Assembly (NCBI GenBank): GCA_963693285.1 | Contig: OY848922.1 | Location: 3,646,923-3,710,922, forward strand | DNA: 64,000 nt | Origin: Xestospongia muta | Lineage: Eukaryota > Porifera > Demospongiae > Haplosclerida > Petrosiidae | Direction of reading: 5' to 3' | Shown here: one piece after another, positions 11,013-42,600 of the stretch | Layout of the letters: every line of letters begins with the position of its first letter | Numbering within the stretch: position 1 is the stretch's first letter | The notes under the pieces: generated by a model | Databases searched by the model: none | Told to the model about the DNA's origin: nothing | What the model saw: only the letters and a program-made list of their open reading frames with translations | Translations under genes and position numbers: made by a program

Positions 11013-11166
11013 TGTCTCTGTATATATATCTATCTTTTAAATCACAAAATCAGCTACTTAAATAGTACAACATACATTCCTAAGATATAACACATTAGTC
11101 CATTGACATAGCACATTTACACAACTAAGTTAACATATTTACACAATGCTTTATAGTTATGCCACA
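11013..11166 (-). repeat. 5' LTR of the inner element
   Basis: Identical to 7496-7649. On the minus strand gag coding follows the LTR within a few bases. Confidence 0.88.
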
Positions 11167-11459
11167 TTGTTCCTTTGTGTCCTCTGTTTATCCAATACTC
11201 TAGAGGAAGTGTCGGGTTGTAACAAGTCAAGATGACATCTAAGCTTTCTACCCATTAAAAGTTCAGCTGGAGATACACCAGTAGTAGAGTGGGGAGTTAT
11301 CCTGTAATGATACAATAGTCGAGCAAGTCTTGTTTCCATATCTCCATCTGTCATCTTTTTCAATCCTTCTTTAAGAATTTGTACTCCACGTTCAGCTAAA
11401 CCATTGCTGGATGGGTGATAAGGTGCAGATCTTAAATGTTGTATTCCATTCTTCTTCAT
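11157..11459 (-). pseudogene. Integrase segment of the outer element, interrupted by the inner LTR
   Basis: Contains the third catalytic residue region (APYHPSSNGLAERGVQILK) and GVSPAELLMGRKLR. The reading frame runs into the inner element's LTR (last residues NVA from LTR sequence, then stop). Upstream it is separated from the first two catalytic aspartates by a nonsense codon at 11466-11468. Confidence 0.88.
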
Positions 11460-11465
11460 GAACTC

Positions 11466-12445: not shown

Positions 12446-12765
12446 ACTGGCTTTTCTGATCCATCCTCCATGACATGAGACAACACTGCTCCTATTCCAT
12501 ACGGAGAAGCATCGCATGAGAGCATTAACTTTTTCTGTGGATCATAATGGACTAACAACTTTGGGGAAGTTAATATCTTTTTAATATCTGAGAACACTTT
12601 CTTCTGGTCTGGTCCCCAAAACCATTTCATATTCTTTTGTAATAGAGTGTAAAGTGGTGCTAACATAGTAGATAGTTAATGAAGGAACTTTCCATAATAG
12701 TTCACTAGACCAATAAATGAATGTAATTGTGCCACATTGTGGGGAGCCGGAGCTTTCAAAATAGC
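12412..12765 (-). pseudogene. RT connection and RNase H start of the outer element
   Basis: In frame with the upstream RT ORF: after the TGA at 12766-12768 it continues as APAPHNVAQLHSFIGLVNYY, then meets a second stop (TAA, about 12676-12678), then MLAPLYTLLQKN, WGPDQKKVF and CDASPYGIGAVLSH (first RNase H Asp). It ends at a frameshift. These are substitutions in an otherwise normal frame, showing decay by point mutation. Confidence 0.85.
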
Positions 12766-14225
12766 TCATATTTTGTCTTCAGCTGGGTGTAGCCCTTCAG
12801 CTGTTATGACATGCCCAAGGTATTCAACCCTTGAGAGCATAAAGGCACACTTGTCTCGCTTTAGCCGCATCCCCTCTGCTTCTAGTTGACTTAACACTTT
12901 GTCCAATGTTTGCAGGTGCTCTTCTTCTGATACACCTGTAATGAGAATATCGTCAATATAGACAGCCATGTTCTTAATACCTCTCAAAATGCCTTCTATT
13001 GTTCGCCGAAAGATTGCTGGTGCTGAGTGGACTCCAAAAGGAAGGCGAGTGTATTGATATAATCCTTTGTGAGGTTCTAGAGCAATCTGGTGGTATGCAT
13101 GTGCGAGGTCAAGTTTTGTAAACTTTTTCCCTCCAGCTAGTTGAGAGAAGAGATCATCATCCTTGGGAAGTGGATATGTATCTAACTTAGCGGCTTGGTT
13201 TATGGTTAGCTTGTAGTCACCACAGACTCTGACAGTTCCATCTCGTTTCATGACTGGGACTATAGGAGCAGCCCAATCTGAAAATTCTACGGGCTCTAAG
13301 ATGCCAGTTTTCTCTAGTCTTTCTAATTCTTCTTCCACTTTACCTCGTAGGGCATATGGAATTGGCCTTGGTCTGAAGAACTTGGGTTGACTGTGTGGAC
13401 TTTGGACTCGACCTAATTCATCCTTGAACAGAATATCCTCTAATTTTAAGGCTTTAGGTCGTACATAGTTTAATTGTAGTTTTTCCCAGTTGAGTTTTAT
13501 CTTGAGTAACCAATCTCTTCCGAGGAGACTTGGTCCAGATCCTTTTACGACTGTAAGCTGCAAAGAATGACATTGGTCTTCATATTTAACTGTAACATTT
13601 ATAACCCCTTTTATAGATAATTTTTCACCAGTATAAGTTTTTAGATTGGTACTGGATGATACGATAGGTGGAGCTTGGCCTTTTTTCCAGTATTTATGAT
13701 ATGTAGACTCGCTGATTATTGAAACAGAAGCTCTAGTGTCTACTTCCATGGTGATGTCTGCACCGTTAACGTTCACGGTCACTTGAATGGGTTTTACATG
13801 ATTGCTATTCATGTTGAACAATGTATACATCGATTCGCTGAGGGAGTGGTCAGCTTCAGAATCAGTGATTTGATGCACTCGTTTTGAAGTGTCTCTCTGA
13901 TTCTTCCTACGGGTATTATGCGTACCTTTGTAAGCATCCTTGTGTGCAGAACCCTGTTTAGCATGACAAGCCCTTGCAATGTGCCCAGTTTTCTTACAAT
14001 GTGAACAAACAACGTCTTTGAATCTACACACAGCTGGGGAATGGGCTCCTCGACATCGATAGCATTCGTTACTAACAACACGATCTCTCGTAATATTAGG
14101 ATCTCGTCGTCCTTTCAGGGAGTTAACCTGAGCTGAGTCTGGCTTCAGTAGATCCTTAGCACTTCGTTCACCCGATTCATGAGCTTGTGCAAGTGTAAAT
14201 GTTTTGTCAAATGTTAGAGGAGGCG
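12766..14225 (-). pseudogene. Nucleocapsid, protease and RT of the outer element
   Basis: Two zinc knuckles (CYRCRGAHSPAVC and CSHCKKTGHIARAC), then a retropepsin with VDTRASVSII where VDTGAS is expected, then LLGRDWL. RT follows with WAAPIVPVMKRDGTVRVCGD, KLDLAHAYHQIAL, LPFGVHSAPAIFRR, the catalytic VYIDDILI and YLGHVITAEG. The RT palm is complete. The Gly-to-Arg change in the protease DTG should abolish protease folding or activity. The frame ends in TGA after AEDKI. Confidence 0.9.
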
Positions 14226-14671
14226 GTTTTGTCTAAGAGTAGACGTTGTAGACGATCATCATTGCATCCACAAATGAGGCGATCTCTCAGCATGTCGTTG
14301 AGTGTGTCGCCAAACTGACAATGTTCCAAAAGTTCTCGGAGGTGGGCAACAAAGTCAGTAATTGATTCTCCGTTCTTACGGTTACGGGAATGAAAAGCGA
14401 ATCATTGAACTGTAACAGATGGCAGCGGCTGATGGTGTTCCTGCACTAACTTCACCAGCTCGTCGAAGGTCTTCTCTGACGGTTTCTGTGGAGATACTAA
14501 GTTACGAATCAGTTGGTACGTTGACGCACCACAAATACTTAAGAGGATAGCTCTTTTCTTTTCCTGGGCTTGTACATCATTTGCCAGGAAATATTGCTCA
14601 AGCCTCTCTGCATAAGATAACCAGGTCTCTTTGCCCGGAGCAAATTCTCCTACAGAACCATGAGTTGCCAT
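14225..14671 (-). pseudogene. Gag capsid region of the outer element
   Basis: Starts at the ATG 14669-14671, about 25 nt inside the LTR, as expected for Gag: MATHGSVGEFAPGKETW, SYAERLEQYFLAND, ILLSICGASTYQLIRNL. A TGA at 14402-14404 follows SVTVQ; the same frame then continues with SITDFVAHLRELLEHCQFG and MLRDRLICG, until a frameshift near 14230. It is recognisable as Ty3/gypsy capsid by these segments. Confidence 0.85.
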
Positions 14672-14676
14672 TGAAG

Positions 14677-14695
14677 TTTTACCCTCGTCGCCAAT
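14677..14695 (-). other. Primer-binding-site region of the outer element
   Basis: Minus strand ATTGGCGACGAGGGTAAAA directly after the LTR end (ATCACA). TTGGCGACGAG at this position is common in animal Ty3/gypsy elements. I did not assign the tRNA. Confidence 0.5.
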
Positions 14696-14853
14696 TGTGA
14701 TGTCCTGATCACTTTATTACACTGATCAAAATTATCATAAACAACTAACAAAGAGGTCAACTTAAATACATGTAGAACAATTAAGGTTAATTTACACATT
14801 AACAAAAGATATACAAGAGAAAGGACAATGTAACAATAACAAAGAATAAATGT
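14696..14853 (-). repeat. 5' LTR of the outer element, truncated
   Basis: 158 bp matching 6833-6990. The outer 82 bp present in the other LTR are missing, and host sequence (AGCAGG) follows at once. The loss includes the outer TG end and probably part of the target-site duplication. Confidence 0.75.
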
Positions 14854-15826: not shown

Positions 15827-18197
15827 TGGTTTATTGTGAAAGGACCTTCAATCCAAAATGATGGATTAAAATTTTATTAAATTTTTTTCTCATTAGATAC
15901 AAAATGGTAGCATATGAATATATTTAGCACTCAAGATGTCTATACTATGTAAGTGATTTTGTAAATGATTGTGATGACAATGTATCCTACATTACTGTTG
16001 ATATATAAGACTAACTGATCTGTCATTCAATAGTATGTAGTGTACACAGTCAACACTTCATTGATTCATTTAGAAAAGATGAGATGTCTTCATTAGATGT
16101 TAACTACCTTATACTAAGCTCTTCTGTTCATAATAATTATGTAGTTTCTTTATTCCTGTTAAAAATATAAAATATATCATTTCAATAGATATGTACCTTT
16201 GATCTGTAAGCTTTGTTCAACATGATCATGATATAAACAAATTTTTATCATTATAATAATTCTCATGACCAGCCTTATACATGTTTTAGAAGTACACTTC
16301 TTTTTCTACACATATAATCAGATCTATTATATAACAATTAATAGAGGATCACTGTCCTAGATAATAAAATAATGTATGTTGCCATGACTACCATTGCATT
16401 CGATTTGACAGCCTTGGCTTTCATTATCAGTTTATTGTCATTTTATTACAAAGAGAGATAAACTTAAACTATTGTAATAACTAGACATTACAACAACTAA
16501 TACAACACAATATATGTACATAGTAAAGTTATTATTAAATCACTTGTAAATTAATTGCAGTTATGACAGAGTATACTACACATGTTAGCGAGTTATCTGT
16601 TTGTTGTCATTAGTACTTATCAATACAACATAGTAATAAACCATACAGTGTCATGTATTGATTACTGCAATTATATTAAATGTATGGGGAGAGAGATAAG
16701 TGGATGAATGAATGGATGGACAGATAGAGAATGTTTTAGGGTGAACACATGAAGGAATATTTGAATGAACCAAATTACTAGTGAATAACATGACTCACTA
16801 AAAGTCAAACTATGTATGTTAAGTATGATAATGTCTTCCTTAATGATATGTCCATGTAATAGTGTATTATTGTCACTACTATACATAATACTAGTAGTAA
16901 TTGATCACTTTATTATATTACTAGATTAATTGTTATATATATAAACTTATTTCAAGAGTAAAGAAAGAGACACAAAGTATCATACATATCAGTACAAATT
17001 AATTCAGAGGAAATAGTCATACTTTTGTGCTCAAAAATCAGTAAACTGTTCAACATATTTGATTCCTCTATTTCATACATGTCTTTAATCTATGCCATGC
17101 ACAATGTAACCTTTCATTTATTTGTTTATTACCACATTATGTACACATACATGACTACAACCAATACAGAATTACATAGTTGTCACAATCTTGTCACAAT
17201 TACATAATGTAATGGCAAGCTTTAGAGAACCTTGGTTCTAAATTGTGTTTAAATTATCACTCATTATCTATCTGTCATAAAGTTGTATTAAATATGTCGT
17301 TTAATGAACAACCTTGTATAATGACTTTCAAAAGTGGGAGCTAGGTCCCTATAGGTATATAGTGTATAACATCTTATAATACGTGAAAGTACTAAACATC
17401 AAATACCTTATTTACTTATCTTTGTCTGTAGAGGTTATTAAATGAATGGTTTATTATCATCACATATTAACTCGCAATACATATCATGTAGTATATTTAT
17501 ATTATGTTAATTTTTTCAGACATTGTTATTGTGTACATCGTAATTAACATAATCAAATACGATGATGTAATGTGATGATCATGTATTTTACATTAGTTTT
17601 GACATAAAGACTTATTAAAGTCAGTATTAACTGTGTGATGTACTTGTTCAACACAATAATCAATACTGACTGTATAGTGTTTTATATGTTCTATGTAATT
17701 TGTTGTCTCAGTAGCTCGTATGGTGTTCATAATGTATATCTTGCTTATATATACTTGAGAGTAAAAGTTGAAAATCCTTACACTTGTATACAGATATTCT
17801 GTGTACAAAATATAATGAGTAATCTCTTCATATTTTTTTTTGTACCTCAGGATTATTTTGAATACAAGAAACAGAATGTGATACCTCTTCATGACTAAAC
17901 ACATTAGCAGGTTGTATCCTTTGTTTCCATATTTTCTATATCAATACTAACATAGCAATTGTGTCATGTTTGTTAACAAACATTGTTTGTATTCCATCCT
18001 TTATGTAGTTGTCTTTGATAGGGTCTAGGAGATAAATACCATTCAAGACATGAACGAATAGAAACAATTTCTGGTAAATCTAGTAAAACAAAGAGTTTAT
18101 TGATTCTGTTTTGACTATTTCACTGTTACATATGCATTACTCCATGACAAATGAAAGTATTTGCTACTTATTTGTTCCTTAGGAAAACACCTCATAC

Positions 18198-18317
18198 CTG
18201 TTGTCAGTTCTCCAATGTTCATATTCAGCAGTAGTTGTCGTATGACTATGAGATCGAATTCATCTTTACAAAATTCAGTCACATCATTTTTAATATTATC
18301 TATCAAGGTATTTTTGA
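18198..18317 (-). CDS. Exon of an unrecognised minus-strand gene (copy I)
   Basis: Acceptor CTTCAG and donor CAG/GTATGAG bracket an open frame with NTLIDNIKNDVTEFC, KDEFDLIVIRQLLLN and MNIGELTT. Copy III (62356-62475) is the same by eye. Two related segments at 4410-4570 and 5680-5840 carry a 4-nt deletion and a stop. No family recognised; predicted helical and acidic. Sequence conservation between copies may only reflect recent duplication. Confidence 0.35.
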
Positions 18318-18490
18318 CTGAAGTTTATATAGCACATTCCTTTATACCAACAACCATTACTATAAAAGTTGGCATGAATAATCTTGTTAATCTGTCTTCA
18401 TCTCTCTTTTTATTTGTTTCATTTATCTCACGTGGACTAGTATTTGTAGCAATAATTAGAAGATCTATATCAAAGCAGTCAACATTAATT

Positions 18491-18600
18491 TTATTTAGAT
18501 GATACTAACAATTCATCATCTTCAAATTTTTCTAAGTGACTTGATTCTTCCATTGCATCACCACACTCCTTCTTGTCATTTTTGTTATTAGTTTCTTTTT
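18491..18600 (-). CDS. Possible last exon of an unrecognised minus-strand gene (copy I)
   Basis: Frame KKETNNKNDKKECGDAMEE, then SHLEKFEDDELLVSSK and stop. Strongly charged, a typical disordered acidic tail. The preceding exon is at 18663-18775. The acceptor is weak (TTTAAAAAAG). Identical in copy III. Confidence 0.3.
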
Positions 18601-18662
18601 TAAATTTTATTATTTACAATAAAATTGAAACAATACTCCTCTCAATTCCTTCTTTCACCTAC

Positions 18663-18775
18663 TAGGATTTTGTTGTTTTTAAAGTACTCATCAAATAAAT
18701 TTAAATGCCTATCTTGGTCCTCCTTTGTACTTAGGAAGACAAGGTGTTCTCTCTCTACTCCTGACACTGTAGAAG
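18663..18775 (-). CDS. Exon upstream of the acidic tail exon (copy I)
   Basis: Open frame ASTVSGVEREHLVFLSTKED, QDRHLNLFDEYFKNNKIL between an acceptor AACAG and a donor GTAGGT. Identical in copy III (62821-62933). Family not recognised. Confidence 0.35.
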
Positions 18776-19171
18776 CTGTTATTAAATTAAGTAATGTCAT
18801 ATGAATTTATTGTTATCACAATTATATAAAGTAAATTTCAGCGTCTCAAATTGTCATTTACTCGTATAGTTATGTTTGTCTTGGCATAAAAGGAAGCTGT
18901 ACGTACTACAAGTACTGTTTCTGATTATTTAGTAAAATGGACAAAATTAAATAAATTCATGCTGGTGTTTCGTAACAGGACAATTATATCGTCAACCACA
19001 TCCTTCCTTAACATGTATCAGTTTATATAGTAGTAGTGTGATATTAATCATCATGATAATAGACAATACTAGTAGTAGTAGGAGTACTAGTAACAGTAAC
19101 AATATCAGGATGTGAAATTATAGTTTAAAGTTTCAGTGTCAAAAGAATATGTCTGTCTATATTAGCAGAAT

Positions 19172-19504
19172 ATGAGTTTATTTATTTATTGTCTGATCTT
19201 GTATTTAAGTTTCAAGATGAAACATATTGTTAAACATTTAATAGACAATACATTATTAGGTAAAGGAAATAAATCCTATTACTTTCTTATCATGAACAAG
19301 GATCAACCTATTTTAGAGAAACGTTTTTCACATAATAGCATTTACTCACATCCACAGTCAAGTCTATTCAGTCAATCTCAGTCTTGGCCAAGCTTTGCCA
19401 TTACAGTATTGATTTTGCTCAACTGGTTCTATAAAACACTTTTTGTCATATATATACTAACATTGAATAATAATTACTTTTTTATTTACTTATTTTGTCA
19501 ATAA
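19172..19504 (+). other. ORF conserved between unit copies I and III, function unknown
   Basis: 110 codons; the middle part (KHIVKHLIDNTLLGKGNKSY to QSWPSFAITVLILLNWFYK) is retained in copy III (63330-63629) with a few amino-acid changes. It has a hydrophobic C-terminal segment. The ORF may be chance in a recently duplicated stretch; there is no family match I can name. Confidence 0.2.
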
Positions 19505-24469: not shown

Positions 24470-25790
24470 TTTTACTTCTCCAGGATGTAGACACTTGAGG
24501 GGTGTTCCTAGCACTCGAACTATTCGTGAATGTTTAGATGAATCGAAGGTCTAGTTCATCCATAAATGCATTAAATACTGGTCCTCTCTAATCTGGCCTT
24601 CGTCGCTTGAGACATTGATCATCAACTGTTTCTTCATCAGACATCATAGTAGGCTTTACATCATTCCACTGTTCCATTTCTTGTGGTAAGACATGTTTTG
24701 ATCATCTGTCCCATATCTAAAGTATAAGGAAAATTGGTGTTATTAAATAGTGCAATGTCTTAACAGACATGCATTTATGTAAATAAAAGTCGATAAGTGA
24801 TTGTTGAGGCGTAAATGCACAAACATAATAAGTTCCATACCTGTTGCTGTCTTGAATGTCGAAGTCTTTTTCTTTCTCACTGTCCTTTGGTGTCCTTTTA
24901 AAGTTCTTCTAAATACAGTTAGTACATTTGAGTTTACAATAATGAAGCAATAAAACATCAATGAAGGTATGCTTACTTCTGACTTGATTTAATCTCTGTC
25001 CACTGTCTAGCACAGCAAGTACACTCTGCTCAACTGGCGGTTATGCTGGCTATCAATTCTAAGGATCACAGTCAATAAATTAAATCTTTAGTAGAATATT
25101 ATTACCCTTTATCCAGTTTTAGCTGTTTCTCTTCAGGGAGGTTGTTATACAGAGCTCTGATTTCATTCTACAAGAAAACAGCAAAAGCAATTAGACTGAA
25201 GATCATGAAGTCACTACTTGAAAGTGTGTAGAAATAACATACAAACATGTGCATATAGTGTACCTGAGTTTCTACAGGTATTTTTCGCTTCCTTCCAGAT
25301 CATAACAATTCCTTTGAGATTGAACCTATAGTGTACTGCTAATATGTGATGACAATGTGCATGATGAAGAAGAAGACAATTTGTTTCCACATCAGCAATG
25401 TGCTGATTTAATTGTGAAACTGATTCGTTTATTTTAGAAATTTCATTAGATATTCCATCTTAATAGTTGATATCATGTGTGAAAGGTAGATTTCAATTCT
25501 TCTATTTCAGTGGTGAATGATGGTAAAGTTTCTCCAGGTTGATATATGCAATCATCTCCAGCAACAGTATCACTCATCAGTCCTCCACCACAATTATATG
25601 TAGCTCCATAAAATCTATTAGTCTGAAGACCATGAGCACCAATGATTGATATTTGGTGCATTCTACTTGGTTCGTTAAAGAGAGAACGATGAGCATTTGT
25701 GCATTTCTAATGTAGTATAGGATGTAGTGACTATAACTTACAGTAGTAGGTTTGTTTTCTTTAAAAGATATATCATTAATGATAAACAAT
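24470..25790 (-). pseudogene. Decayed multi-exon coding fragments of an unrecognised, repeated family
   Basis: Minus-strand pieces in order: GISNEISKINESVSQLNQ (heptad-like) with HHAHCHHILAVHYRFN (about 25262-25470); NEIRALYNNLPEEKQLKLDKG (about 25108-25170); a piece with AECTCCARQWTEIKSSQ preceded by a stop (near 25000-25050); TPKDSEKEKDFDIQDSN (near 24850-24900); then QWNDVKPTMMSDEETVDDQ with KRRRPD and a stop, and in a shifted frame SKHSRIVRVLGTPLKCLHPG. The MSDEE...RRP...GTPL order is one I have seen in repetitive uncharacterised proteins of sponges and cnidarians. No function assigned. Confidence 0.35.
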
Positions 25791-25799
25791 CATGTTATG

Positions 25800-26740
25800 T
25801 ATACTTAATAATTTATTTGCTTATATAACACTACTTAATTACATGTCTAGCACTCTGGCTGGCATAGCAAGATCCTCACTATATAGTTTGGTCTGTTTAG
25901 CAATAAAGACTTGTACAAATGAAATGTTGTGGTTTACATATGCAGCCACAAAAAATGATTGCTAAGCTCAAAATTATATGTAAGACCTAACATTTTCCAT
26001 TTATGATAGCTGTTAGGGGAGTTATTAAAGAATCGTCTGTGCAAAATATTGTGAAGGGAAGCCAAAAAAGGATCTTGCTGTCCCTCATTGGTAGAAAAGC
26101 TAATACCATTACCTCCAACAAAGCTGGAGATAACAGTAAGTTCATTATCTCATATATGTTAAAGTAACCAAGTGAAGTTGCTGCTCCCCTGCATGCACTC
26201 TCAACTTGGCCTAACCAACTTTGCCATTTTGAAATATGTGATATCATATATTGAGGAATGTTAGAATTAGCTTCTTAAAAATCTGCTTGGGTCAACCAGA
26301 TTCCAGTAACACTACACAAGTTCTCAATACTAAGCCAACAGGACCCTCTTCCATTTAGTGTGAGGACCTGGCTTATACCAGACTATAGTCGATATGCTAG
26401 CCACATGCATCACAAATATATAATCTGTCTATATATTATTACAAATTAACTAAATTAATTTCCCAACCAATTTAGACACCCACACAGGTCATTTTTTATG
26501 GTACTATACCATGCAAATTTAAGTATGCATTACACATATACAAATAGTGGGAATATACGACAGATCATTTAATAATATGTCTCAAGTTAAAGTGTTAAGT
26601 CTAGCTAATATAGTTGCATCTAGCTAATATATTGGTTTGACGTCCTGATAAAATATCTCGTTGGCTGGAAAGCACAGCTGAAACCTCCAGCTAGAACATA
26701 TGCTCGATAGGCGTGGCTTAGATTTATTCTATTAATACAC
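25800..26740. other. Intergenic stretch with weak ORFs
   Basis: Contains an 86-codon open frame on the minus strand (25987-26247) without recognisable motifs. Nothing else supported. Confidence 0.3.
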
Positions 26741-26769
26741 AATAAAAGCTATAGAAAAGGCTCGACCAA

Positions 26770-27244
26770 GAAGAAAATGTCTTAAATGTGGGCAGACGCT
26801 CTCGTACTCTGCGTATAATAGCTTTAAAAACGCAGCTGTATGTCACGGAAGGGTCACATGTCATTTAGACCAGAGTAATAGTTCCATTCCTCCAGCACTT
26901 AATGTCAACTTTGATGATAGTGTAGCAATACCCATTAACGATGACAGAGGAGGAAACAATGCTGATGGGAGTGAAGAACTAATTCAGAACCAATTGTCAG
27001 GTACGTCTAGTAGTAATGAGTCTGAATCTGAAGCAGAATCAGAGGAAGGGATTGAAGTATTTGAAAACTCTGACAACAATGATACTGAAAACACTACATC
27101 AGATTTCAGATTGCAGCATTCATTATCTGAAGAAAAACAGCACCACAGCAGTGTTGATTGTTCACCTTCAAACTCATTTTTGAAATTATTGTGTTATTTT
27201 ATCACTTTTTTCCAACTAAGTTACCAGCTATCTGACTGTGCTTG
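26770..27244 (+). pseudogene. TNP2 transposase N-terminal zinc-binding and acidic region
   Basis: Cys-x2-Cys...Cys-His pattern followed by a Ser/Glu/Asp-rich linker (SGTSSSNESESEAESEEG). It stops at 27244 after QLSDCA; the continuation is in shifted frames. Confidence 0.6.
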
Positions 27245-27736
27245 ACACTACTTCTATTTCAAAAAGCAATGTTCTTCTGGATGTCTATGCTTGTCCCTCC
27301 CCCAACAAATAACGTTGTTGTAGCAATTGTTCAAAAATGCCTAATAATATGTACTTCCTGAAGAAGCTTTGCAAGGGTCATTGTAATTCAATCTGAAAAT
27401 ATGTTGTCTGTCCATCATGTTCTGCACTCTATACAATGGATGAGTTGTCTACTAAAACCACATCATATATTCCAAAATGCACTCACAGCTTTATTCGCAT
27501 AAGAAAGTTTACTGCAATGCAGTTTTATTGAAAAAAGTAAAGCACTACACACTGGCACCAAAGCATGTGTATGCATACAATTCACTGAAAGGCAGCTTAG
27601 CCAAATTTTATAGTAGAAGTGATTTCCATTAAAAATATGAACACTGAAGAAAAAGGCAGGTAATAGAGGGTCTATACATGGACATGTATGATGGTGCTGT
27701 ATGCAAGAACTTTTATTCCTTGTATTATAAGCTGTT

Positions 27737-28444
27737 TTGCAGCAACCATACAATCTATGCCTTCAACTGAATGTTGACTGGATACAACCATTTGATCATA
27801 CACAATACAGCATTGGTATTATATACTTGTTTGTAGAGAATCTTCCTCGTGGTGATAGATACAAAATGGAGAATGTGATATTGGTTGGTTGTATACCATG
27901 TCCCAAAGAATCCAAAGGTAATATTAATGCCTTTTTGAAGCAATTAGTTGATGAACTGCTTGAACTGTGGACTGGTGTTCACTTAGCTCCGTACAAACTC
28001 ACCATTTGGCTACATATCAGTTTGCTGTGCTTTAAGTTGTATTACTGCTGACTTGGCTGCCACACGTAAGCTTTGTGGTTTTGCAAGTCACTCAGCGCAA
28101 ATGGGGTGCTCAAAGTGCATAACAAATTTAAGTCTAGCGCCTTTGGAGAAAAGCTAGACTACTCTGGATACGACCAAGAAATTTGGCATTTTCGTGATTT
28201 CAACTCACACCTGGCACAGATTGTTGAAATAAAGCAAGGAAAAACACTGACAGAACAAAGAGATTTAGAAAAGAAGGAGGGTGTTTGTTATTCTGAATGC
28301 CTTCGTCTCCCATACTTTGATATTGTGAGATACCATTGTGTAGATGTAATGCATAATCTGTTGCTTGTGGTAAGCATTATGATGAATATTTGGAAATCTC
28401 TTGGACTTTTGACATCATCAGATAAATTAGAACTGATTCAATAA
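27737..28444 (+). pseudogene. TNP2 transposase catalytic core fragments
   Basis: Two frames (27737-28051 and 28073-28444) joined only across a frameshift near 28040. They hold the DWIQPF and VDVMHNL aspartates typical of the TNP2 domain. Confidence 0.8.
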
Positions 28445-28676
28445 ACAGTCAATAACGTACAAGTACCACCACAAATTGGAAGAATTTCTACAAAAAATTG
28501 CACTAACAGCTCCTCTTTTACTGCTGATCAATTGAGAAACTGGACTTGTATCTTCTCCTTATATACTCTACATGGGAACGTTCCAACAACTGCTGGGTTA
28601 TTTTTGCCAGGCATGCTTTCTTCTACTTCAGCCTGTAATAACGTTTTCAGAATTACAAGAGCTGATGAAAAGCTCA

Positions 28677-28755
28677 TTACATTTTGTAAAACATTCCAGC
28701 ACCTATATGGTTCAGAGAAATGTACTCCAAACATGCACCTTCACTGTCACATCAA
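28677..28755 (+). repeat. 79-bp direct repeat, left copy
   Basis: Identical to 29515-29593. It is transposase coding sequence duplicated on both sides of the inserted Roc-COR fragment. Confidence 0.92.
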
Positions 28756-29515
28756 GCAACTATAACAGCTGGAAACACACCCTACAAAAATAGAGAATGA
28801 TGTTATTTTTTATTAATTATCAAAACAAGTTTGCAGAATTATACTAATTTGCAAGAGAATGCTTTTAACACTAACAAAATCAATGATTGTTGAGTTGTAG
28901 AACAGTTACATCACTTACCTGAGGAACGACTTTACTTCTGAATGTAATAATCATTGGATCACATTTTCTTTGAAAAACAACTATGTCTGCCTCTTTTGCT
29001 TGTTTAGGTGGTAATACTACTGGCATAAAATAGCGCTTAACACCATCAGTTGTCGAGAGTGGAGTAATGATATGCAGATAACGAAGCAACATTAAAAAGG
29101 CATGCTTTGTAAAAAGAGAAGAAACAAATGGTAGGCAAACTTTATCAAGTAAAGATTCATCAAATACTCCAAATTCTCGAAATGCTCGCTGAGTGTCTAG
29201 TGTTAAAGACTTACCCTCGAGTAAAATATCCTCTAAGGAGTCTACAAATGACACACGTATCAATGCTGAGAGCAGGTCAAGGAGATATTGAGGATTACTA
29301 AATATTACTTTAGGAAGGACAATTGGAAAATACAAGAACAAGGCCATGATATGTAAGTGGGATAAAGACTTGAGGACATCATTTACATCCATACCAAGAC
29401 TAACTCCAAAACTATGACAAGATTCTAATGAAATTATTCCATGATCCTCGTGTACCAACGTACTGGTATGGGTGCAGCGATGCTAATGTCCTTTTCGTAG
29501 GACATAATGTGCTGT
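28755..29515 (-). other. Captured copy of a Roc-COR gene fragment inside the transposase
   Basis: 761 bp matching 33913-34707 of the neighbouring Roc-COR-Death gene at about 99 percent by eye (some eight substitutions), with one 34-bp deletion corresponding to about 34612-34645. It includes the intron between the COR exons, so it is a DNA copy, not a retrocopy. The copied coding frame is still readable on the minus strand (HGIISLESCHSFGVSLGMD ... CDPMIITFRSKVVPQ). No start codon, GTPase motifs or Death domain are included. Confidence 0.92.
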
Positions 29516-29593
29516 TACATTTTGTAAAACATTCCAGCACCTATATGGTTCAGAGAAATGTACTCCAAACATGCACCTTCACTGTCACATCAA
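29515..29593 (+). repeat. 79-bp direct repeat, right copy
   Basis: Identical to 28677-28755; transposase coding resumes directly after it. Confidence 0.92.
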
Positions 29594-30539
29594 AGAAACA
29601 GTACTTGATTATGGGCCTGTGTATTCTATACATGGTGTTTAGCATTTGAAATATTTAATGGTGTTTTTGAATCTTTTCAGAAAAAATGGATTTATCCTGA
29701 AGTTCAACTGCTGTCTAAGTTTCTCAACTTTCAGAATGTGTTAACTTCAAACTTTCTTTTTTGTTTTCCATCATCTCTTAATGATATTATGCAAATGCAA
29801 TCTGACAAAGTAAGAGAACTTATTTTAGGACATGCATGGCTCTTTACTCGCCACTCACATTGATGGTCTCGCATTGCAAGAGTACAACAAAAAGAAAATA
29901 TGTCAAATTTCCTCAATTGATGCTTCAGAAAAAAATATTCATCATATCCCATCAAAACAATAAGAGAAGTACCTTTCACCTGAAGACGTAAAATGGATTA
30001 ATGAAGTGCACAATAACATAAACCCTACGTATACAGTAAATCATGTCCCAATAAAATGTGAGCTTTTTTATGAAGTAGAAGTACTTGGGAAACATTTTGT
30101 GTCTTCTAAAACCAAGGGTAATGCATCTCCTTACATTCTTGCACAGTGGGCAGCCATGAGAGGTAGAATATGTGGCAAAACATTGCGAGTAGGGAGAGTG
30201 ATGTACTTTATTAACCACTGTATTATACTTCATGAAGCAAATGAAAACCTATGATCTCCAATCAAAATGAGCTAAGTCCTCTAATCTATTTGCCGAAGTA
30301 CAATAGCATTGTAGCCACCTCAGAGAGAATTGGTTTCCATCACCTATTCTTGTTGTTAGCCCTACTTGTGAGGTAGATGCTACTGGCCCAGCAACATTTA
30401 TTCTTATTAGTCGTATATTGAGTCGATGTACTGTTATTTCAGATAGGATTACGTGTGATTTTGGAGAAGATTCCGTTCTTGTCGCTATTCCACTGAAGAA
30501 AAGAATGCACTCTGTTCATTCTAGAAGCCAATTATAATT

Positions 30540-32290
30540 CCATTGCATGTATGAATACTAATAGCTTCATACTTTAGTATCTAATAATAACATTTCTCAG
30601 AGAATATCAATATGTACTGAATTAATCATGTTAAAATATTAAATTTCTTGTATGATAGTATACAATATTGTATTTCAGCTGTGTACATGATAATATACAA
30701 TACTTTTGTAGAACATAAAGGTAACATCATTAATACACAGTGAATAACTACTGCATAACAATGTAGAACAAAAGAATTCATATCAATAACATAAAAATAC
30801 TATAGAGTATCACACTAGTATAGCTGAAGTATACAATTGTCCTGTGTAACGTATGTATAATATCAGAATACACAGTTGTGTAAGGCAATGTATACTCACA
30901 CTTTTGCACAGTGTTAGTAGACTACTAAAGAGTAGACTAACAGAATTGTACCATTGACACTATCGAAATTGTGTCTCATGTTTAATGCCACAATTTTCAG
31001 GTGAGCAGATAACATTGGTGCATATCTCATGTAAAGACGAATGATTAGAGAGTGCAATTTATTTTCAAATATGTAGATGATGTAGCATTTCTCCGTGTAA
31101 AAGTTTTTAAACACACTTCGGTATCCATGGAGGCCAATATATACTCTATCAATTCTATATAAGACACGAGGTATATACCGTAAATAATCAATTCTTTTTA
31201 AAGGTGGTATTGTTGGCAATTTTGTAAGTTGATCATAGAGAGGTGTATGAGTCGTAAAAGAGTCTGTTCTTATTGTATGGAAGAGGTTGCACATACCTCT
31301 TTTTACCATCATCTAAACCATAAGACAGGTGTAGTTGGTCCTGAAAAATGTAATTAATTGGTGCCTTACACTCCCAACGATAAGGCCCGATCAATTGATT
31401 ACGAGAGTGGTATAACACCTGTCCAGTCTCAATGATTCACTGCACAGAGAGAAGCTAGCACAAGCTTATTAATCCAATAAACGGGAAAGTTCTAATGATG
31501 TCGAACTGATAAATCTACAGGAAATGTATAATAATTGTTTATATCCTGCAACAGAATACGATATTGTTGAATCATTTCTGCAAGCAAATATCCGTTAATG
31601 ATTGTCTTTTTCTCAGCAGTAAATCACGTTCTCCAAAATCAACTGCTGTTGTTGCACACTGGCTTAATAATGTCATAGGTATTAATACAAGTAGACAGGC
31701 ACACATCCGAGCTGGATTTATAACTTATTTCTTTCGTCATGAGTTAAAACTAAAATCCAGGTCAAATTTTGTAAAACTACAAATACTAATGTATTAGCAC
31801 ATGTCCAATGGTTGGAATATCACCCATATTGAGATTCATTCTAACAACATTTCTTACTTCAACATCATTTGTGAGAAATTGCTGTCAATTTTATTCCTGT
31901 TGCTAGAATAGTGGGACATTATGCAGTTGCCAAGACTAATGTAAAACTTCATTACAGAATTGACAAAGAGATTGTTTGTGTTCTCTTATTAAAAAGTGCA
32001 TTTGTTTGATATTAGCTGTGTCTTTTGTAAAATCTTATATCATACAGTGCACTTAATTAAATGTATTATTTACAAATTGATTATTATTAATAGTTATGGC
32101 AATAAACATATGATTATATCAAATTGCTTAAAATAAGTCTGTTATAAGCAAGATTATAACAGAATGAGGTATAAGCATCCACACTACACCATCCATATAT
32201 AGACTGTTAGTATAAGAGAACTTATAACAGTCTGATATTACTGTTATAATAGGTGTCAGATAACAGAATATTCTTAGCAATTTACACATC
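30540..32290. other. Intergenic stretch with unassigned ORFs
   Basis: A minus-strand ORF at 30914-31312 (132 codons) and a second at 31233-31418 show no motif I recognise. A plus-strand ORF at 31564-31797 includes NDCLFLSSKSRSPKSTAVVA and RQAHIRAGF, which weakly recalls the His-x-x-Arg box of tyrosine recombinases. No firm feature. Confidence 0.3.
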
Positions 32291-32294
32291 GGTA

Positions 32295-32376
32295 GCGACA
32301 TCATAGCTGGGCCTAAGCTGGCATAGCATTTATAAATAACTTAGAAACTGCAGCGAGGTTACACACTTTTGTGCCT
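32295..32376 (-). repeat. Inverted copy of a small transposon's terminal region
   Basis: 82 bp whose reverse complement matches 36913-36993 at about 85 percent by eye, including TTATTTATAAATGCTATGCC and CAGCTTAGGCCCAGC. Confidence 0.8.
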
Positions 32377-32601
32377 TTCATCTGTATTGCTATTGATATT
32401 ATTTTTATTGCCAAAAAGTATTGTTTGCAAACAGTTTAAAAATATAGAGTATTATGAATTTTATAACTAATATACTAACACAAACTGAATTCACCAATTC
32501 TAAGTTATAGTGCAAAAGAACAGCTAAATTACCATTTTACTCTAAAACAAAATTAAGTACAAGAATGTTAGAAAACATGTATGTTATCTATTCTCTACAC
32601 T

Positions 32602-32660
32602 TCATTTGGTAGTGTCATTTGTAGCCTCAGTGATAGTTGCTGGAATATCAGCAGTTTCAC
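32602..32660 (-). CDS. Roc-COR-Death gene, last exon
   Basis: Acceptor TATTTCAG, then GETADIPATITEATNDTTK and TGA. Short Thr-rich tail after the Death domain. Confidence 0.8.
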
Positions 32661-35600
32661 CTGAAATAAATAAGATAGGGTTATAAATTGTTTGCAAGAT
32701 AATTTTAGAAATATTTTTTTATAAATTCAGATTGTCCTGTGAAATTTAAATTGACAGGTCAGTTTAATGTGTGTATACAGATTCATTGAAAAGTAAATTA
32801 ATAGGAATACTTAAAAAAGTATAATTAAGGTACTGAAACTAAGTCTTCTTTTACCATTTTGTGATAAAATTTCTTGCACAATGCGATTTTCATCAATTGC
32901 TTTTAGAGCTTCAATGACGTTTGCTCTGTTTGCATGACCACCTTTTAACCACTTTACTAACATGTCTTTACGAGATGGTGCAGGTTGATAATGATTGAGT
33001 GCTTTAATATCTTTTATTATGGCATCTTTAACACCCAGATGTATACCCAAAATTTCCCAGTCATCAACATCTTTAACAAACTTTACAAGAGCAGAAAGGT
33101 GACACTCATCTAAAAGATATTTCCTTTAAATAAATCAACGTTGAACTGGTATAGTTACCTAGTGGTCCATTTGGTAGATTTGAGTTAACATGTATAATAT
33201 CTGAATCATGTGCTAATAAGATGAAAATTTTATTCGTGACTTTTTGCATTATAAATGCTAAAATCTAACTGTAGTCTGTGTATTGTACTCTCACCTATAT
33301 TTCTGCTTGAAATATCCAACATCTCCTGATCTAATTCATCTACAGTGAAAAAGTAATAAATATTGGTCAATTGTTTCAATATAATCAATCACAATTATGT
33401 ACCATGTTGTTTAGTTGTTTTGGATCCAGAAGTTGCAGAACAAGGTTCTACACCAGGATAAAATTAATGCCACAAAGTAATATTTCTAACTTACCAATTA
33501 GCCAACAGGTTTGTCTTTCATCAATCAAATGAAGGGTTGGTAGCTGTTTTTCAATACTACATCTCATTAAAGGTGGATCATGATCCCATGATATCAAGAC
33601 TGGGTGTAACTTATATCCACTTTCACTGTGCTCTTGTTTACAAGGGACAGATACTTCAGCTTTGAGTGCCCCTTCATCATATCCCAATATATCAGCACAA
33701 GCTGATATTGCTTCACAGATGACTTTGTGTAATTTAAAACAATTTTTAGTCACACCATTGTAGTAGACCTCAATCCAATAGAATCGATCAACTAATAAGA
33801 CAGAACCAAATAAATCTTCAGAATAAAGTAAAACAGCATAACGAAGCTGTCTTGGAAATGCAATTGAACAACTATCTATATCAAATTGTGGACTTTCTGT
33901 TCTGTCAACTAGAGCAACTATAACAGCTGGAAACACACCCTACAAAAATAGAGAATGATGTTATTTTTTATTAATTATCAAAACAAGTTTGCAGAATTAT
34001 ACTAATTTGCAAGAGAATGCTTTTAACACTAACAAAATCAATGCTTGTTCAGTTGTAGAACAGTTACATCACTTACCTGAGGAACGACTTTACTTCTGAA
34101 TGTAATAATCATTGGATCACATTTTCTTTGAAAAACAACTATGTCTGTCTCTTTTGCTTGTTTAGGTGGTAATACTACTGGTATAAAATAGCGCTTAACA
34201 CCATCAGTTGTCGAGAGTGGAGTAATGATATGCAGATAACGAAGCAACATTAAAAAGGCATGCTTTGTAAAAAGAGAAGAAACAAATGGTAGGCAAACTT
34301 TATCAAGTAAAGATTCATCAAATACTCCAAATTCTCGAAATGCTCGCTGAGTGTCTAGTTTTAAAGACTTACCCTCGAGTAAAATATCCTCTAAGGAGTC
34401 TACAAATGACACACGTATCAATGCTGAGAGCAGGTCAAGGAGATATTGAGGATTACTAAATATTACGTTAGGAAGGACAATTGGAAAATACAAGAACAAG
34501 GCCATGGTATGTAAGTGGGATAAAGACTTGAGGACATCATTTACATCCATACCAAGACTAACTCCAAAACTATGACAAGATTCTAATGAAATTATTCCAT
34601 GATCCTCGTGTGACGCCTCCTCTTTCAAACGCAATTCAAACATGTACCAACGTACTGGTATGGGTGCAGCGATGCTAATGTCCTTTTCGTAGGACATAAT
34701 GTGCTGTCGAAGAGAAGATGATGTCTTCCTTCGATTCCACCAACATAGATTATCAACAGGAAATATGAGCTCTTTTGAATCTTCATTATGAAAAATAAAA
34801 TGGTCATGAAATTCACTAAGAGTAGACAGTAGCTGCTCATTCTTAAATTCTAATGGCTCATAGCTATAAAATGCTTTTCTCAGACCCTTAATCTTATCAT
34901 AGTAAGTGCCAATGATCATAAAAAGTGGTAAGCTTTTCTTTCCTTTTAGAACAATAGTATTTTTAGAAGAAACTATTGAACGTACAAAATGCTCTATTAG
35001 CTCTAGGTTGGTCATCTGTAACTCACTAGGTTGATTGAGCAACTTACCATTCAGTGAGTAGCAAAACTGAGGCTTTTCAAAAAGGCTTTCTGTTAACTTT
35101 GTACAGATTATATTTATGGTATTGCCACGAATAAATGCTCGTGATACATCAGCAAATTGTGGCTGGCCACCACTATCAAGAACATTTATCCATGTGGCTT
35201 TGTGGCGGTTTTGTGTTGTCTTTTGCTCTGCCAAAATTTTTGCTAAATCCTTAGAATACTGATATTGATCTGGATTGGTATTGTAAGTCGAAATTGCTCT
35301 AGCAGGGCTGTTGCTAGAAACTACAGGTCGTGTAGCTTCGTCAGATGACATTGTTGCACTATTTAAAGATATATGATAGCTACTCAAGTCTTTGGTTTCC
35401 TTCTTTGTTAGGCTGCATTTTGTAGATGTAACAATATCTGTATCCAACTCTTTCGAATCATATTCTGATTTTGTTGATGTTATAGCAGTAGGCCACAGGG
35501 AAGCAGCACTGTCACTTTCTACTTTTTGTATAGCTGACCCAGTAATGCTAATGCCGGTTTCATCAGTTCTCAAACATTGGGTCGATTCATTAGCTGGGCT

Positions 35601-36582
35601 GGCACTAGAAATTGCAGGTCTTGTAGCTTTGTCAGATGAGATTGTAGGTTTGCTTGTAGAAATATGAAAGGTTTTCTTCTCTGTTTGATTGGGTTTTATA
35701 GTTGTATCGATATCAGAATCCAACTCATTCAAATCTTTTTCTGATATGGTTGATGTTACTGCAGTAGGCAACGGTACAGCAGCATTGTAACTTTTTATAT
35801 TTTGCTTTGCCAACCCAGTCATGCTACTTTTAATAAGTGTGAATTTTTGAGGTGATTTTGCAGATAATGTTGTACCACTAGCATCTTCTGAAATAGGTTC
35901 ATCAGTTTTTTGTTGTGAATCTTGCTCTAGTGCATGAATTGCATCTGAAAGCATCCTTAGTAAGTTGAGACTGGTAACCTTTTCCCATATCTTTCCTTCA
36001 TTGCGTCCAGCCACCCTCTCTAATGCTCGTATAGGTCTTGTTGCTAATGCTGTACTGTTGTGAAATCTAGGTGCACTCCAGTTGAACAGAAGTGACTTGA
36101 ATGCTGTTTTACCAACACAAGGTGGTCCCATAAGAACAAGTCTCATGTTAGTAAGTTGAACATTGCCTTTGTGGAGTCCACGTTTGAAAAGCCGTTGTAA
36201 TGCTGTAAGGAAGAAAAACAAAAGGATATTAGATTACTTTTAGAATAATGTATTGTGCTAGTAGTATGTTAGCATACTAATCATATTAATAACACAAGGT
36301 ATACTATCTTCTAGTATATGTTTCATACAAAGGTATTATTAAATATATATTTGTCTTAAGATTGGAGATGTATCATTAAATTGACTACAGAATATTAGCC
36401 TATAAAGATGTCTGCATAGAGAAATAGAAGAAAGTACAGTATTGTTTGTTAATTAAGAAACCTCCCTCAATTATACTTCCAATTTTTAATTGTAATATCT
36501 TAATTTGTTAATTGCCATAACTTCAAATTTTGTACTACTATGTGCCATCAATTGGAAAATACTCATATATGTTCTAGTATGG

Positions 36583-36641
<59 letters not shown>

Positions 36642-39600
36642 ACAATAATATAAACTATACAAGGAAAATGAAGTTGTTGTGATATGCATAATTATTGTTA
36701 CTAACTATCAAATACATACCTTCATCTATTAACAGTTTTACAATGTTTCGATAGCCTCTACTCTGAGCTAATTCAGCTGGAGTTCTACCATCCTAAGTGG
36801 AGAATGAATGTATTAATAGAAAACCAAACATAATGTGTAAATTAATATAAAATATAAATGTATATATTATATATACATAAATGTTGTAGCGAGCAAGTAA
36901 TCTTATAATAAAAGGCACTAAAGTGCTGAACCTCACTGCAGTTTATAGTTATTTATAAATGCTATGCCAGCTTAGGCCCAGCGATGATGTTACTAGGTAG
37001 CATTGTAAGAAAATTTAACATTCTAGAAGGTGTTTTCACATTTATCAATATTTCATATAGAAACTTTACTGTAACTTAAAGATGAAACATTCTTTGGAAA
37101 TGTCCTATAGTACAAATATAAATCAATGTATTATCTATTGGTAGCAGTTTCTTCAGTGCTTTGAGACGTTTTCTGAATGCGTCACTTCGCTCCAAGTCAA
37201 TGTACAATCTTGAAAAAACCCTTCAGAAATTTTATGACGATTGCTTCGGCAACTAGCTTCTGTCTTGCTGATGCGTATTCCTCTAAGATTTTCTACAACA
37301 TGCTAAAAATTCTCCACATTTTTTTTGAGAAACGGCACCTTCATATCTGCGGCCTGAATACTCTTTTGCAAGTTTTAAGCTTTCATTTTCCTTGACGATG
37401 TTCTTAATACAACTGTTGTAAGGTCTACAGGTTTTTCTAATCATTGCTCAACGTTGATAGCTGCCAATGCTTCACTTGCCAAGTTATAGCAGTTAAAAAA
37501 CAATCGCTGGTAACAGGCAGTGCAGACACGCACACACTGACAGACTACAGTACCTCACTATGTGCCCATGCACAGTGAGGTTAACAAGAGAAAAAGTGCC
37601 TTTATTACTCATATGAGTGGATATATAAGTCATCAATGTACTATCAGTTTATTGAAATACCATCTCATCATATATAATTGTTAGAATAGATGTATACAGA
37701 GTTTATAATTTAAACAAACTAATAAACTGTTAATAATAATGTTGTTCAGGAAAAAATACTATAAATAGAAGACATAATACTGTTATAGTGAAAGTTAATT
37801 CCTTACATCAAGTAACAAGATTATATATATATATATATATATATAAGAATTAACTAAAAGGCTGCTTACAGAGCAATAAAAATTGATTTTTGATAATTTT
37901 GAAGTAGGCCATATTAACCTGACCACAGGTTTGTTATAATATGTGATTACATCACTCTGAACATGTATATCTGCCTCACTACCATTGTAAGAAAATAGTA
38001 TATGGTAATAAACTTAATTTATGAAGATGCTGTTTTCCATGTAAAGAGGAACCAATAAAAATTGTAGGTATGAGCGTACAACCATAGACTTGTCACTATT
38101 TTTAGATAACTAATGAAGTAACGCCCACACAAATTGAAATTCATGGACACATTCAAATCGAATTTTTGTGCCAAGAAAAAAAATATATATAGCTGGTGAG
38201 ATAAACAAGCCAACAAGAAATTTTACAGGAATTTGACTAGTAAGATGAAAGATCTGTCCTGTTCGTTCATGTGTGGGTGTAGTTCCCAAATGTTTTAAAA
38301 ATAGTAACAACTCAGTGATTCTGGAAGTAGGAAAGTAAATATTTACATGTATGTTGCATGCTCTTATTTTGTGTACATTTAATCTTTTGTTGTAAAGCAT
38401 AGAGAATATATGATATGTTCTATGATGTCTCAATGTATAGAGACAATATCAGATCTTCATCTCTAGTTTAATAGAAGCTGTTGGCTTTAAATTTGGCTGA
38501 TATTTTGGAGTTGAGGTCAGATATTGCATTGTTGCTATACAGCACAGAACAACTTTATCCCTCTCTTGTCAGATCAATACTGATTACTGCTAACAAGTGT
38601 AGAAAGCAAATCTGATAAAGGTATATGTCAAAATTAAAACAATAAAGCACTAGACTTCAAAAAATACCTTGAATAATTTTAAACCAGATCTCATGATTCT
38701 ATTTTCTGATGTTAATATAATTCCCTTTTCATGACATTTGAAATTAATGATAATCTTCTTCATCAACTCATAACAAATTTATAATTTATAATTTATAATC
38801 GACTTATAACAACGAATTAGTCCTATATATTCAGCTTATTCCAATGCATTAATAATAATGTTCATAAAAGTTGTGGAATTTGTTTATGAATATAATCATT
38901 GTGTTAATTTCTTATTTGTATATATGTACTTTGTCTGGTTGCTTTTAATGCACTTGTGATTATGGATAACACTCTTTAAAACATCAAACAATTCAATTAT
39001 TTTTGTTTTACTAAAGTTAAGGTTCTGATTGAGTATATGAAATTATATATTTAATTTTATTGTGAAAAGAAATATGTAAGAAGAAACAATTCACTACTAT
39101 ATGTGGAAAAGATATAGAAGAAATAATACACACACACAAGATACAACAGTCATTCAAATGAGATCTCTGTTTTTTGAGAAACTTTTTCGTTGTGAACATA
39201 TTTGAAGCTATAGTTATTCATAACAATACAATGTATTAACCCATTGATGGGCGGGTCAAATTAATCTTAATCACACGCGTGGGCGGCTACTTTTTCAATA
39301 ATGCTTTTCAAACATAGCAATGCTTTAAAAGCATTATTAGCAACTTATTCCACTGCATTAATAATAATGTTCATAAAGTGGAATTTGTTTATGAATATAA
39401 TTTTTTTGTTAATTTGTTATTTGTATACATGTACTTTGTCTGGCAGCTTTTAATGCAGTTGTGATTATAGATAAGACTCTTTAAAAGATGAAACAATTGA
39501 TTATTTTGCTATACTATAAACTTAAGGTTCTGATTGAGTTTATGAAATTATGTATTAAATTTTATTGTGAAAAGAAATATGTAAAAAGAAAAAATTCTAC

Positions 39601-42600
39601 TAGTATATGTAGAAAAGACATATAAGAAATTATGCCCACACACAAGATACAACAGTATTTCAACCTACATCTGTGTTTTTATGAGTCTTTTTGCTGTGAA
39701 CATATTTGAAGCTATAGTTACTTATTATAATACAATGTATTAAAACAAAGAACATTATTGCAGATATTGTTACATAGTCATGTAAATAGTTAGATATACA
39801 TTATGTTAGATAATTTCTTATTAACTGTCTTCTTAGTCATGTAGGATAAGAGTGGTATGTTTCAAGTTATGAAGTTAATCTTAATTGTGCTTGATAAAGG
39901 AAGAGTGCAATTAATTCTCTTTTAATTTGGATATCAAAGAGAGTCTGATGGCAAGTATTTTCTAATCATATTGTTGTATATTGATGGCAGATACTTAAGG
40001 CATTTCTTTTCTACTGATCATGTGAAACTATACGTATACAGAATTATAACATTATCAAAACATTCTAGGTTAATTTTGTACACTGAACATTATAACTACA
40101 TAGGTGAAGTGATTATGACAGTCTTCACATTTAACAAACAATAACAAATAATATGAAAGAGTGTTTTCACTGGCCAATAATAACATTTTAATACCATACT
40201 CAGCATATTATTCATAACCTTTGACTATTGAAGCAATCATACAATGATCATTTATACCTCATTAACAACAGTAATGTCAGCACCATTAGTAATTAATATT
40301 TTGATGATCTCTGGACGTTTACAGTAGGCTGCCCAATGTAATGCAGTCCAGCCATCCTGTAGCAATAAAACAAAGAAGCATTACATACACAATGTACACT
40401 ATACAGAGACATTTCAACTCAATCTACTAGTAACAATAATATATTTATGATTTTAATTACTGATTTCATTTAAACATTGACTATGTGATGTTGTCAAGAT
40501 GGTATACTTCCTATACAGTTTTGTTAATACATATATGTGTGTGTGTGTGTGTGTGTGTATATAGAGATACTATAATCTATTGTAGACTAATATACTGCAT
40601 TACTAAACTCTTAACAAACAAATATGTCTAAAAACAGTGAATAATTAATATAAATGTGCTGGACAACTTCTACTAATTTTAAGGATAGAATGATTACATC
40701 AGATATAAGGACACAGGTTATTAAAGCTGTAACTACACTAGTAACTCTTTATTGACAAGATTATAGTTCAAGCTAAATGCATGAACTAAATGCTTTCAGA
40801 AATTAAAAATGTATTTCATACTCCACATTATCTCCTATAATGATACAAGAAGCCTTATGTTAAGATAACTTAATTAAAGAGTGTGAAAACTATATAACTA
40901 TAAGTACAATTTTCAGTTTGAGCAGTTATTATAGTATAAATTGAAGACAGTAAGTTTTGGTCTGCAATTGTGGTTATTGATGTTACACAATTAATAGTCT
41001 AGTGTATTGCTTACAGAAGATAATGAAGACTCATTCGAAAGGTTAATACAACACTTGATACACACACACACACATATATACATACATACATACATACATA
41101 CTGTTAATATGTAGGAATAGAAGCGCAAGCACTAACATTTGGAATATTACAGAATAAATTAAAGTAAAGAAATATATGCAACAAATTTATAATTTAAATT
41201 GACCTAAAACATCTAATATGCTTTTAACAAAAGAGAAGGATTCTGTTTGCTATACAGCTGAATTGAGGTAGTCACTTGCTTTGAGTTATATTAACTATGC
41301 TGTTTGCTCATCTCCTGAGTAATACTAAGTGATGTTTAGTCTTAACATAAACTTCCTTTGCTCAAGCTGCTCCCGTGCACTGTATTAAACCTCATCAGTA
41401 ACATCAGAAACATCACTAACTTGCAAGAAGCCATCTTCGCTGACAAAGTCAGAGACCATAATTCCTCTTCCTTTGGACTTTTGCACCATAACTTGTGTCC
41501 CTTTTAACCCCCACTGTCGTTTTTCATCTTCATTGGCTTGAAAAATGGTTTCATCATGAAAAAAACAATTGTTTTTTCAGTGACTTCTTTTGGAGGTTCC
41601 TCAAGATCTTCAGGGAAGGACTGCTTTGCCTCCAATGTTTCAGCATGCTCTTTCCTTAAGAAACCCAATCCTACCATCTTCCTCAGAAACTTCTTACGAT
41701 GGTCAACTACATCACTCCTCTCATGTCCATCAACAAATGACCCTTTCTTTGGAGATAGGTATTCATATCCAACATGATGAAGCCATTTATGAGCTGTTTC
41801 TGTTGAAACATGGTGTGGAAACCCTGGTTCAAGTGTGGAGTTTGGCAGAAGAACATCATTTACCCAAGAGCAAAAGTCCCTTAGTCTCATGTTTGGTTGT
41901 CCTTTGACACAACATTTTTGTCGAACATACTCACACACTTTATGATTGAGTTCTTCATTAGACCATAAAATACCTGTCCTCTGGTATCTTCCCTGTTTAC
42001 TCTCACTGATCTCCCCATTATTATCAAAAAAAGCCTTTCTCCACTCTCGAATGGTTCTTTCAGATCGATCAACCAAAAGACCAGCATATTTTGCTGCATT
42101 CATCATTGTGAAACTGAAATACTGCATCAACTGAAAGTGAATAAAAAGTCCCAAAGAGACACGATTATCTTGATCAAGTGACTCAACCCATTCATTGCAA
42201 AACTTATTGACCATCTCCTTTTCGTCGACAATATCCTCCTCCTCTGCTGAATTGTGAAACTGTTCTGAAGTCTCTACCATTGAGTCATCTATTGATGTTG
42301 ACTCATTTAATGAAACCACATCGGCATCTTTAAAAATAAGGAAAAGTCTACTTTTACCATCTAAATCTTAAATTTACCTTCTACTGGTTCTTCTAAGCGT
42401 TTATACTTAGCCTGTCTGGCTAAACTTGCTGCAATTTGTAGTTTCTGTAAGCGTTTGGGTTTTCTAGGCATTTTCCTTCAATCAGCTGCTTAAAATTCAC
42501 GATGAAATTATGGTAGATGAATATTATTAAAAACGGAATTATTGTCAATGAATCTCATTACGCGTACTAATCATTCTTTAAATTATACTAACTTAGTTTT

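Follow-up and report, generated by a model that had tools for sequence, protein, structure and literature searches.

The stretch of DNA considered here, referred to as the window, is 64,000 nucleotides long and corresponds to C6:3646923-3710922 in a genome assembly of 158 Mb and 28 contigs. The remnant of a TNP2-like transposase is followed in it by a Roc-type gene on the opposite strand, and the remnant contains a fragment of gene sequence that is bounded on either side by a direct repeat. The features are:

27534..29621, plus strand: decayed TNP2-like transposase remnant (PF02992) with stops, a frame change and the insert; extent taken from low-E tblastn matches
28677..28755, no strand: left copy of the 79-bp target duplication, inside the decayed TNP2 coding sequence; 100% repeat pair, present as a single unit at 4/4 other places returned
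28755..28756, no strand: junction J1, target to donor 33913/33914; microhomology of 1 bp (A); once in the genome
28755..29515, minus strand: copied Roc-type gene fragment with intron 28782-28918, without 34 donor bp at about 29448-29451
29514..29515, no strand: junction J2, donor 34706/34707 to target; microhomology of 1 bp (T); once in the genome
29515..29593, no strand: right copy of the 79-bp target duplication; 100% repeat pair
32811..36233, minus strand: donor gene region with ORFs 34038-36233 (weak Roc match), 33448-33939 and 32811-33125 (Death domain, PF00531)
33913..34707, minus strand: donor stretch in the adjacent gene, composed of 27 bp of exon 2, intron 33940-34076 and 631 bp of exon 1

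Elsewhere in the window, the ORFs at 4711-5025 and 5982-6296, which are 1,271 bp apart, have the same 104-aa translation, and the pair adjoins retroelement-like ORFs at 7084-14713 (a class judged by eye). ORF translations at 18155-19504 and 62244-63629, 44 kb apart, form two near-identical pairs, which suggests that a segment of the window has been duplicated within it. At 38845-39743, units about 80-93% alike are duplicated in tandem, the period being 504-509 bp. We also note a dispersed repeat of ~1.15 kb (31143-32288) between the TNP2 remnant and the gene, many copies of which, 84-93% identical, are found on other contigs.

The direct repeats, found by a repeat search and rechecked, are identical at 79/79 positions. 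The insert between them aligns by BLAST to the donor stretch in direct orientation over 795 columns with 7 mismatches and one 34-bp gap, which corresponds to 99.1% identity across the 761 common positions; a mismatch at 29450 in the MAFFT alignment is an effect of the gap, and the BLAST count of 7 is used here. The A at 28755 and the T at 29515 fit both templates, 1 bp per edge, and the duplicated target accordingly measures 77-79 bp. The limits of the copied intron were read from the GT..AG signals of the donor, with which the ORF limits agree. Since the intron is present in the copied part, the template was DNA or unspliced. The fragment starts and stops within the Roc-type gene, and poly(A) is found at neither edge of the insert. 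TGT is present at both sides of the 34-bp gap, as would be expected from a further slip. The preliminary description had reported a DNA-level copy of about 99% identity with its intron kept and a 34-bp deletion, between exact 79-bp repeats. Alignment of the insert region to the donor region confirms that a copied fragment lies between direct repeats, and a small correction concerns the edges of the repeats. The insert is antisense to the dead transposase gene, and a coding role for it appears unlikely.

The insert was compared with the adjacent gene and with 28 paralogous loci that were fetched, and the adjacent gene is the closest with 7 mismatches, the next best having 15. The loci stem from 42 genome matches to the insert-bearing query, 12 of which were given no locus among those fetched. 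Alignment and tree comprise 20 of the 28 loci (without L020, L021 and L023-L028), less L030, which was left out, and among the resulting 19 paralogs the insert and the donor are sisters with a support of 99/95. Three variants are private to the two and occur in 0/19 paralogs. Judged from these comparisons, the donor is the adjacent Roc-type gene. Three of the seven differences between insert and donor are unique to the insert, and at the other four the donor departs from most paralogs, which indicates that both have aged since copying. The 34 bp missing from the insert are present in all 19 aligned paralogs.

The naming of the donor as a Roc-COR gene in the preliminary description is plausible in that some of the 120 relatives listed carry precomputed PF08477 (Roc) or PF16095 (COR) matches, one of them both; the support is indirect, however, as the Roc match of the donor protein itself (E 0.0046, 17.6 bits) falls below the Pfam cut-off of 27. 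The Death domain match in ORF 32811-33125 belongs to the same gene region. The one relative among those 120 that bears a source name is from Amphimedon queenslandica and shows 54% identity across 52% of the query, which makes a sponge the probable source of the DNA. A PDB sequence search with the 730-aa ORF as query gave no match at E 0.1. Related Roc/Death-type genes form a large array on C6 at about 3.68-6.73 Mb (the window copy being 32600-36300), and of the 42 matches obtained with the insert-bearing query, 35 are on this contig, the window's own two counted; these genes are an expanded family. The gene in the window is flanked by a 49-nt inverted repeat (32293-32341 and 36947-36995, 94% complementary), and 36908-36995 also matches the sister blocks described below, in inverted orientation.

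The target site was returned at four other places in the genome, three on C6 (about 3.89, 4.59 and 4.71 Mb) and a divergent one on C14. All four are without the insert and hold one 79-bp unit, as seen from left and right flank matches that overlap over 79 bases and from the alignment, which agrees. The places on C6 (blocks b2, b3 and b4) are segmental duplicates of the window region and keep its order of TNP2 remnant and Roc-type gene; the third block has the two in separate pieces, some kilobases apart. The flanks at both sides of the insertion site are sequence common to the sister blocks. Because 4/4 other sites returned are empty with a single unit, both the insert and the duplication are derived and specific to the window copy. 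Divergence of the blocks from the window by substitutions is about 5.1% left of the site (three blocks) and 3.1-3.3% right of it (two blocks), against 0.9% between insert and donor, which places the event in the window copy after the blocks had split. Furthermore, both 79-bp units carry C where the three sister blocks have A, and this window-specific base shows that the duplication was made from the local target. At the insert/donor rate of 7/761, the probability that 79 bp show no difference is 0.48, and the ages of the duplication and the insert are compatible.

Two further observations concern the blocks. The window differs from block b2 at 62/998 positions in the kilobase left of the insertion site and at 35/994 in the kilobase right of it (about 6.2% to 3.5%, window 27755-30515; Fisher p 0.0065). 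A sharp recombination boundary at the insert might be considered; the profile is patchy, b2 and b3 also vary between themselves, and no edge is seen. The drop may reflect a conversion tract with its end close to the break, or it may be patchy by chance. In addition, a truncated copy of the Roc gene (L072 431-1271, C6 about 3.8859 Mb) is situated ~4.5 kb upstream of the TNP2 match of b2 and matches window 33477-34318; b3 and b4 have like matches, equally far from theirs (near 4.586 and 4.702 Mb), and the window has none at the equivalent place.

The host element had decayed before it received the insert. Of four TNP2-region ORFs scanned, only 27731-28048 has a PF02992 match over the cut-off (35.4 bits, cut-off 28.6). 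The genome contains 13 PF02992 matches, of which 11 are over the cut-off, and the best of them lies in an open stretch from which 718 aa were read (L071, elsewhere on C6). The window copy matches residues 188-531 of this stretch at 35.6% identity over 351 columns, with stops present; the part coded by the 79 bp is about residues 507-531. One stop (ELIQ*) is common to the window, b2 and b3, the stretch being missing from b4. As this stop is shared with b2 and b3, the element was broken before the block duplication and hence before the insertion. The element had been introduced as CACTA-type: the tnp2 match holds, whereas the CACTA class is assigned only through Pfam tnp2 matches. An Rfam search of 26000-37000 gave no match.

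Both junctions are precise and no target bases were lost. Each of them is present once in the genome with up to 3 mismatches allowed, and this junction search, which answers the earlier proposal to look for further copies of the chimera, returned no second locus; the chimera shows no sign of movement or spread. Single junctions and empty related sites together speak for a structure that did not come about as a chance resemblance. The microhomologies of 1 bp are uninformative because 1 bp or more is expected at 47% of random junctions here. In terms of copy number, the pattern is that of a duplication (79 bp), a normal stretch (4.3 kb) and a duplication (795 bp), with two junctions.

These features are probably best explained by one break-repair or template-switching event. 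A DNA break or a collapsed replication fork inside the already dead TNP2 element would have been repaired in one step, in which synthesis would have passed over the 79 bases of the target and then jumped 4.3 kb downstream into the neighbouring gene (33913). After copying 795 bp as far as 34707, it would have gone back to where the same 79 bases begin. The product would be a cis templated insertion, that is, a copied fragment between two 79-bp copies (duplication-normal-duplication). As to the pathway, MMBIR/FoSTeS-like switching and a ~79-nt staggered break with copied filler may both be envisaged, with products alike. The earlier suggestion of template-switching repair or a wide stagger is thus upheld as a possible cause. 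Among the points that stand against this reading, the microhomology is at chance level, and a duplication followed by a deletion gives identical bases. Another is that the gap-filling model of Tan et al. 2021 starts from an element with a gap, whereas the present target has been duplicated without loss.

The alternative of duplication and deletion invokes a 5,193-bp tandem duplication (unit corresponding to 29515-34707), after which the first unit would have lost 4,319 bp (corresponding to 29594-33912). The apparent target duplication would then be the stub remaining on the left side of this deletion and the apparent insert the 795-bp stub on its right side. This sequence of events reproduces both junctions exactly, and it demands a donor close by downstream and in direct orientation, as is the case here. 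It would have taken place in a region rich in duplicated blocks, where another truncated copy of the gene is present in the sister blocks (L072 431-1271), and the remnant has also lost 34 bp. Nevertheless, two events are needed, and the intermediate is found at 0/4 related sites. If both deletion breakpoints are taken as uniform, the probability of a left stub no longer than 79 bp is 0.030, and that of either stub being so short 0.060, which is a weak argument. We regard this two-step history as possible but rather unlikely.

An assembly artefact, in which a misjoin has placed gene sequence in the transposase, is very unlikely. The region is repetitive and is represented by an assembly alone. 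On the other hand, the 7 differing sites and the 34-bp gap are as expected after independent ageing of insert and donor, 3 of the differences occurring in no aligned paralog and 4 where the donor departs from most paralogs, and both junctions are precise.

The preliminary description compared the locus to Pack-CACTA capture, in which an active CACTA element would have acquired the fragment and could move it. The TNP2 match in ORF 27731-28048 and the 13 genome matches, with the best in an open stretch of 718 aa, are in keeping with such an origin, and as in the Pack-CACTA and Pack-MULE elements of plants, a gene fragment with an intron is found within transposase sequence. Here, the host element is dead, with no sign of mobility or spread. 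The stop common to b2 and b3 and the stretch missing from b4 argue against an active element, as do the empty related sites, the block sequence shared on both flanks and the single occurrence of each junction. In 24500-31500, no long, well-matched flanking pair that could represent terminal inverted repeats is present among 25 of 42 inverted pairs. CACTA motifs in the window are at chance level (188 vs 180.9 expected). A target duplication of 2-3 bp is expected for CACTA elements; the duplication of 77-79 bp flanks the insert rather than the element, around which no target duplication was identified, and the statement that 79 bp is too long for ordinary transposition is supported. Capture of this kind is extremely improbable and is rejected on the dead host element, the single chimera and the ends that were not seen among those pairs. 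Retroposition or LINE-mediated insertion of a transcript, which direct repeats around the insert might call to mind, has a next to negligible probability and is contradicted by the retained intron and the missing tail, as well as by the repeat of 77-79 bp and the fragment ends inside the gene.

Coming back to the one-event reading, a scan for candidates was made in 73 sequence records, many of which overlap, with a total of 348,308 bases; it was confined to repeats 16-400 bp long. It gave 38 repeat pairs, 31 of them testable, and 20 had an apparent single-copy match. Five of the 20 are the same event in overlapping records, and the other 15 (one in L048, seven in L065, one in L068 and six in window 38845-39720) resemble repeat arrays. 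No second such event was recognised among these 73 records, with the 15 array-like candidates taken collectively, and so nothing shows a recurrent process. Patch repair of staggered breaks is said to be a recurrent source of gene fragments in plants. By analogy, the germ line might copy pieces of the neighbouring Roc/Death array between long target duplications when repairing breaks and thereby have a recurrent source of gene fragments, which we consider unlikely.

Close parallels are available in animals. In the study of Tan et al. 2021 (PMC8277862), 160 out of 281 unique animal Pack-TIRs have their parental copy no more than 15 kb away. The authors attribute most single-copy Pack-TIRs to transposition-independent gap filling and report microhomology in excess of chance in most human cases tested. 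The cases described there share with the present locus host sequence inside a DNA transposon, a parent at <15 kb, a single copy and related sites that are uncopied; here, the donor is 4.3 kb off on the same contig, the junctions are single and 4/4 returned sites are empty. In contrast to that account, the present locus shows no terminal inverted repeats among the pairs inspected, its target has a 79-bp duplication instead of a gap, the microhomology is at chance level, and the empty sites are paralogous blocks and not orthologues of other species.

Cis templated insertions between target duplications have been described in tumours (PMC10482687), for which replication restart (microhomology-mediated break-induced replication) is proposed, and template switching and duplication-normal-duplication (DUP-NML-DUP) in people (PMC5120786, PMC11658439). 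These accounts also have a copied segment between target copies and two low-homology junctions, and the same elements are observed here: two junctions, a copied segment between two target units, and little homology. The present case differs in being found in a reference assembly and in its far smaller target duplication (79 bp). Moreover, in the tumour cis events of PMC10482687 the copied segment is described as always shorter than the flanking duplication, whereas here it is ~10x longer. In mouse and human cells, breaks whose ends protrude give rise to small tandem duplications (PMC5730883, PMC8355091), and patch-mediated repair in rice (Vaughn and Bennetzen 2014) is summarized in PMC7407515. 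The duplication of tens of bp at a break is similar in these reports, and the rice study also has ectopic donors, but here a 761-bp filler parts the two units. Among the templated sequence insertions of people in PMC5110952, the class with target duplication is given as LINE-mediated with poly(A) and the break-repair class as being without target duplication; neither, as described there, fully fits the present insert. In our literature search, no account of such a case in sponges stood out, which is no proof of absence.

Most likely, then, a piece of the neighbouring gene was copied into a dead transposon, probably by faulty repair of broken DNA. The result is a clean but ordinary repair scar, a new case of an already known kind. 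It is an unusually well-polarised natural example, in which the donor, four empty sites, both junctions and the relative age can be read in one genome. A gene fragment inside a transposase may mimic transposon capture and yet be a repair scar, and a long apparent target duplication is possible without a transposase.
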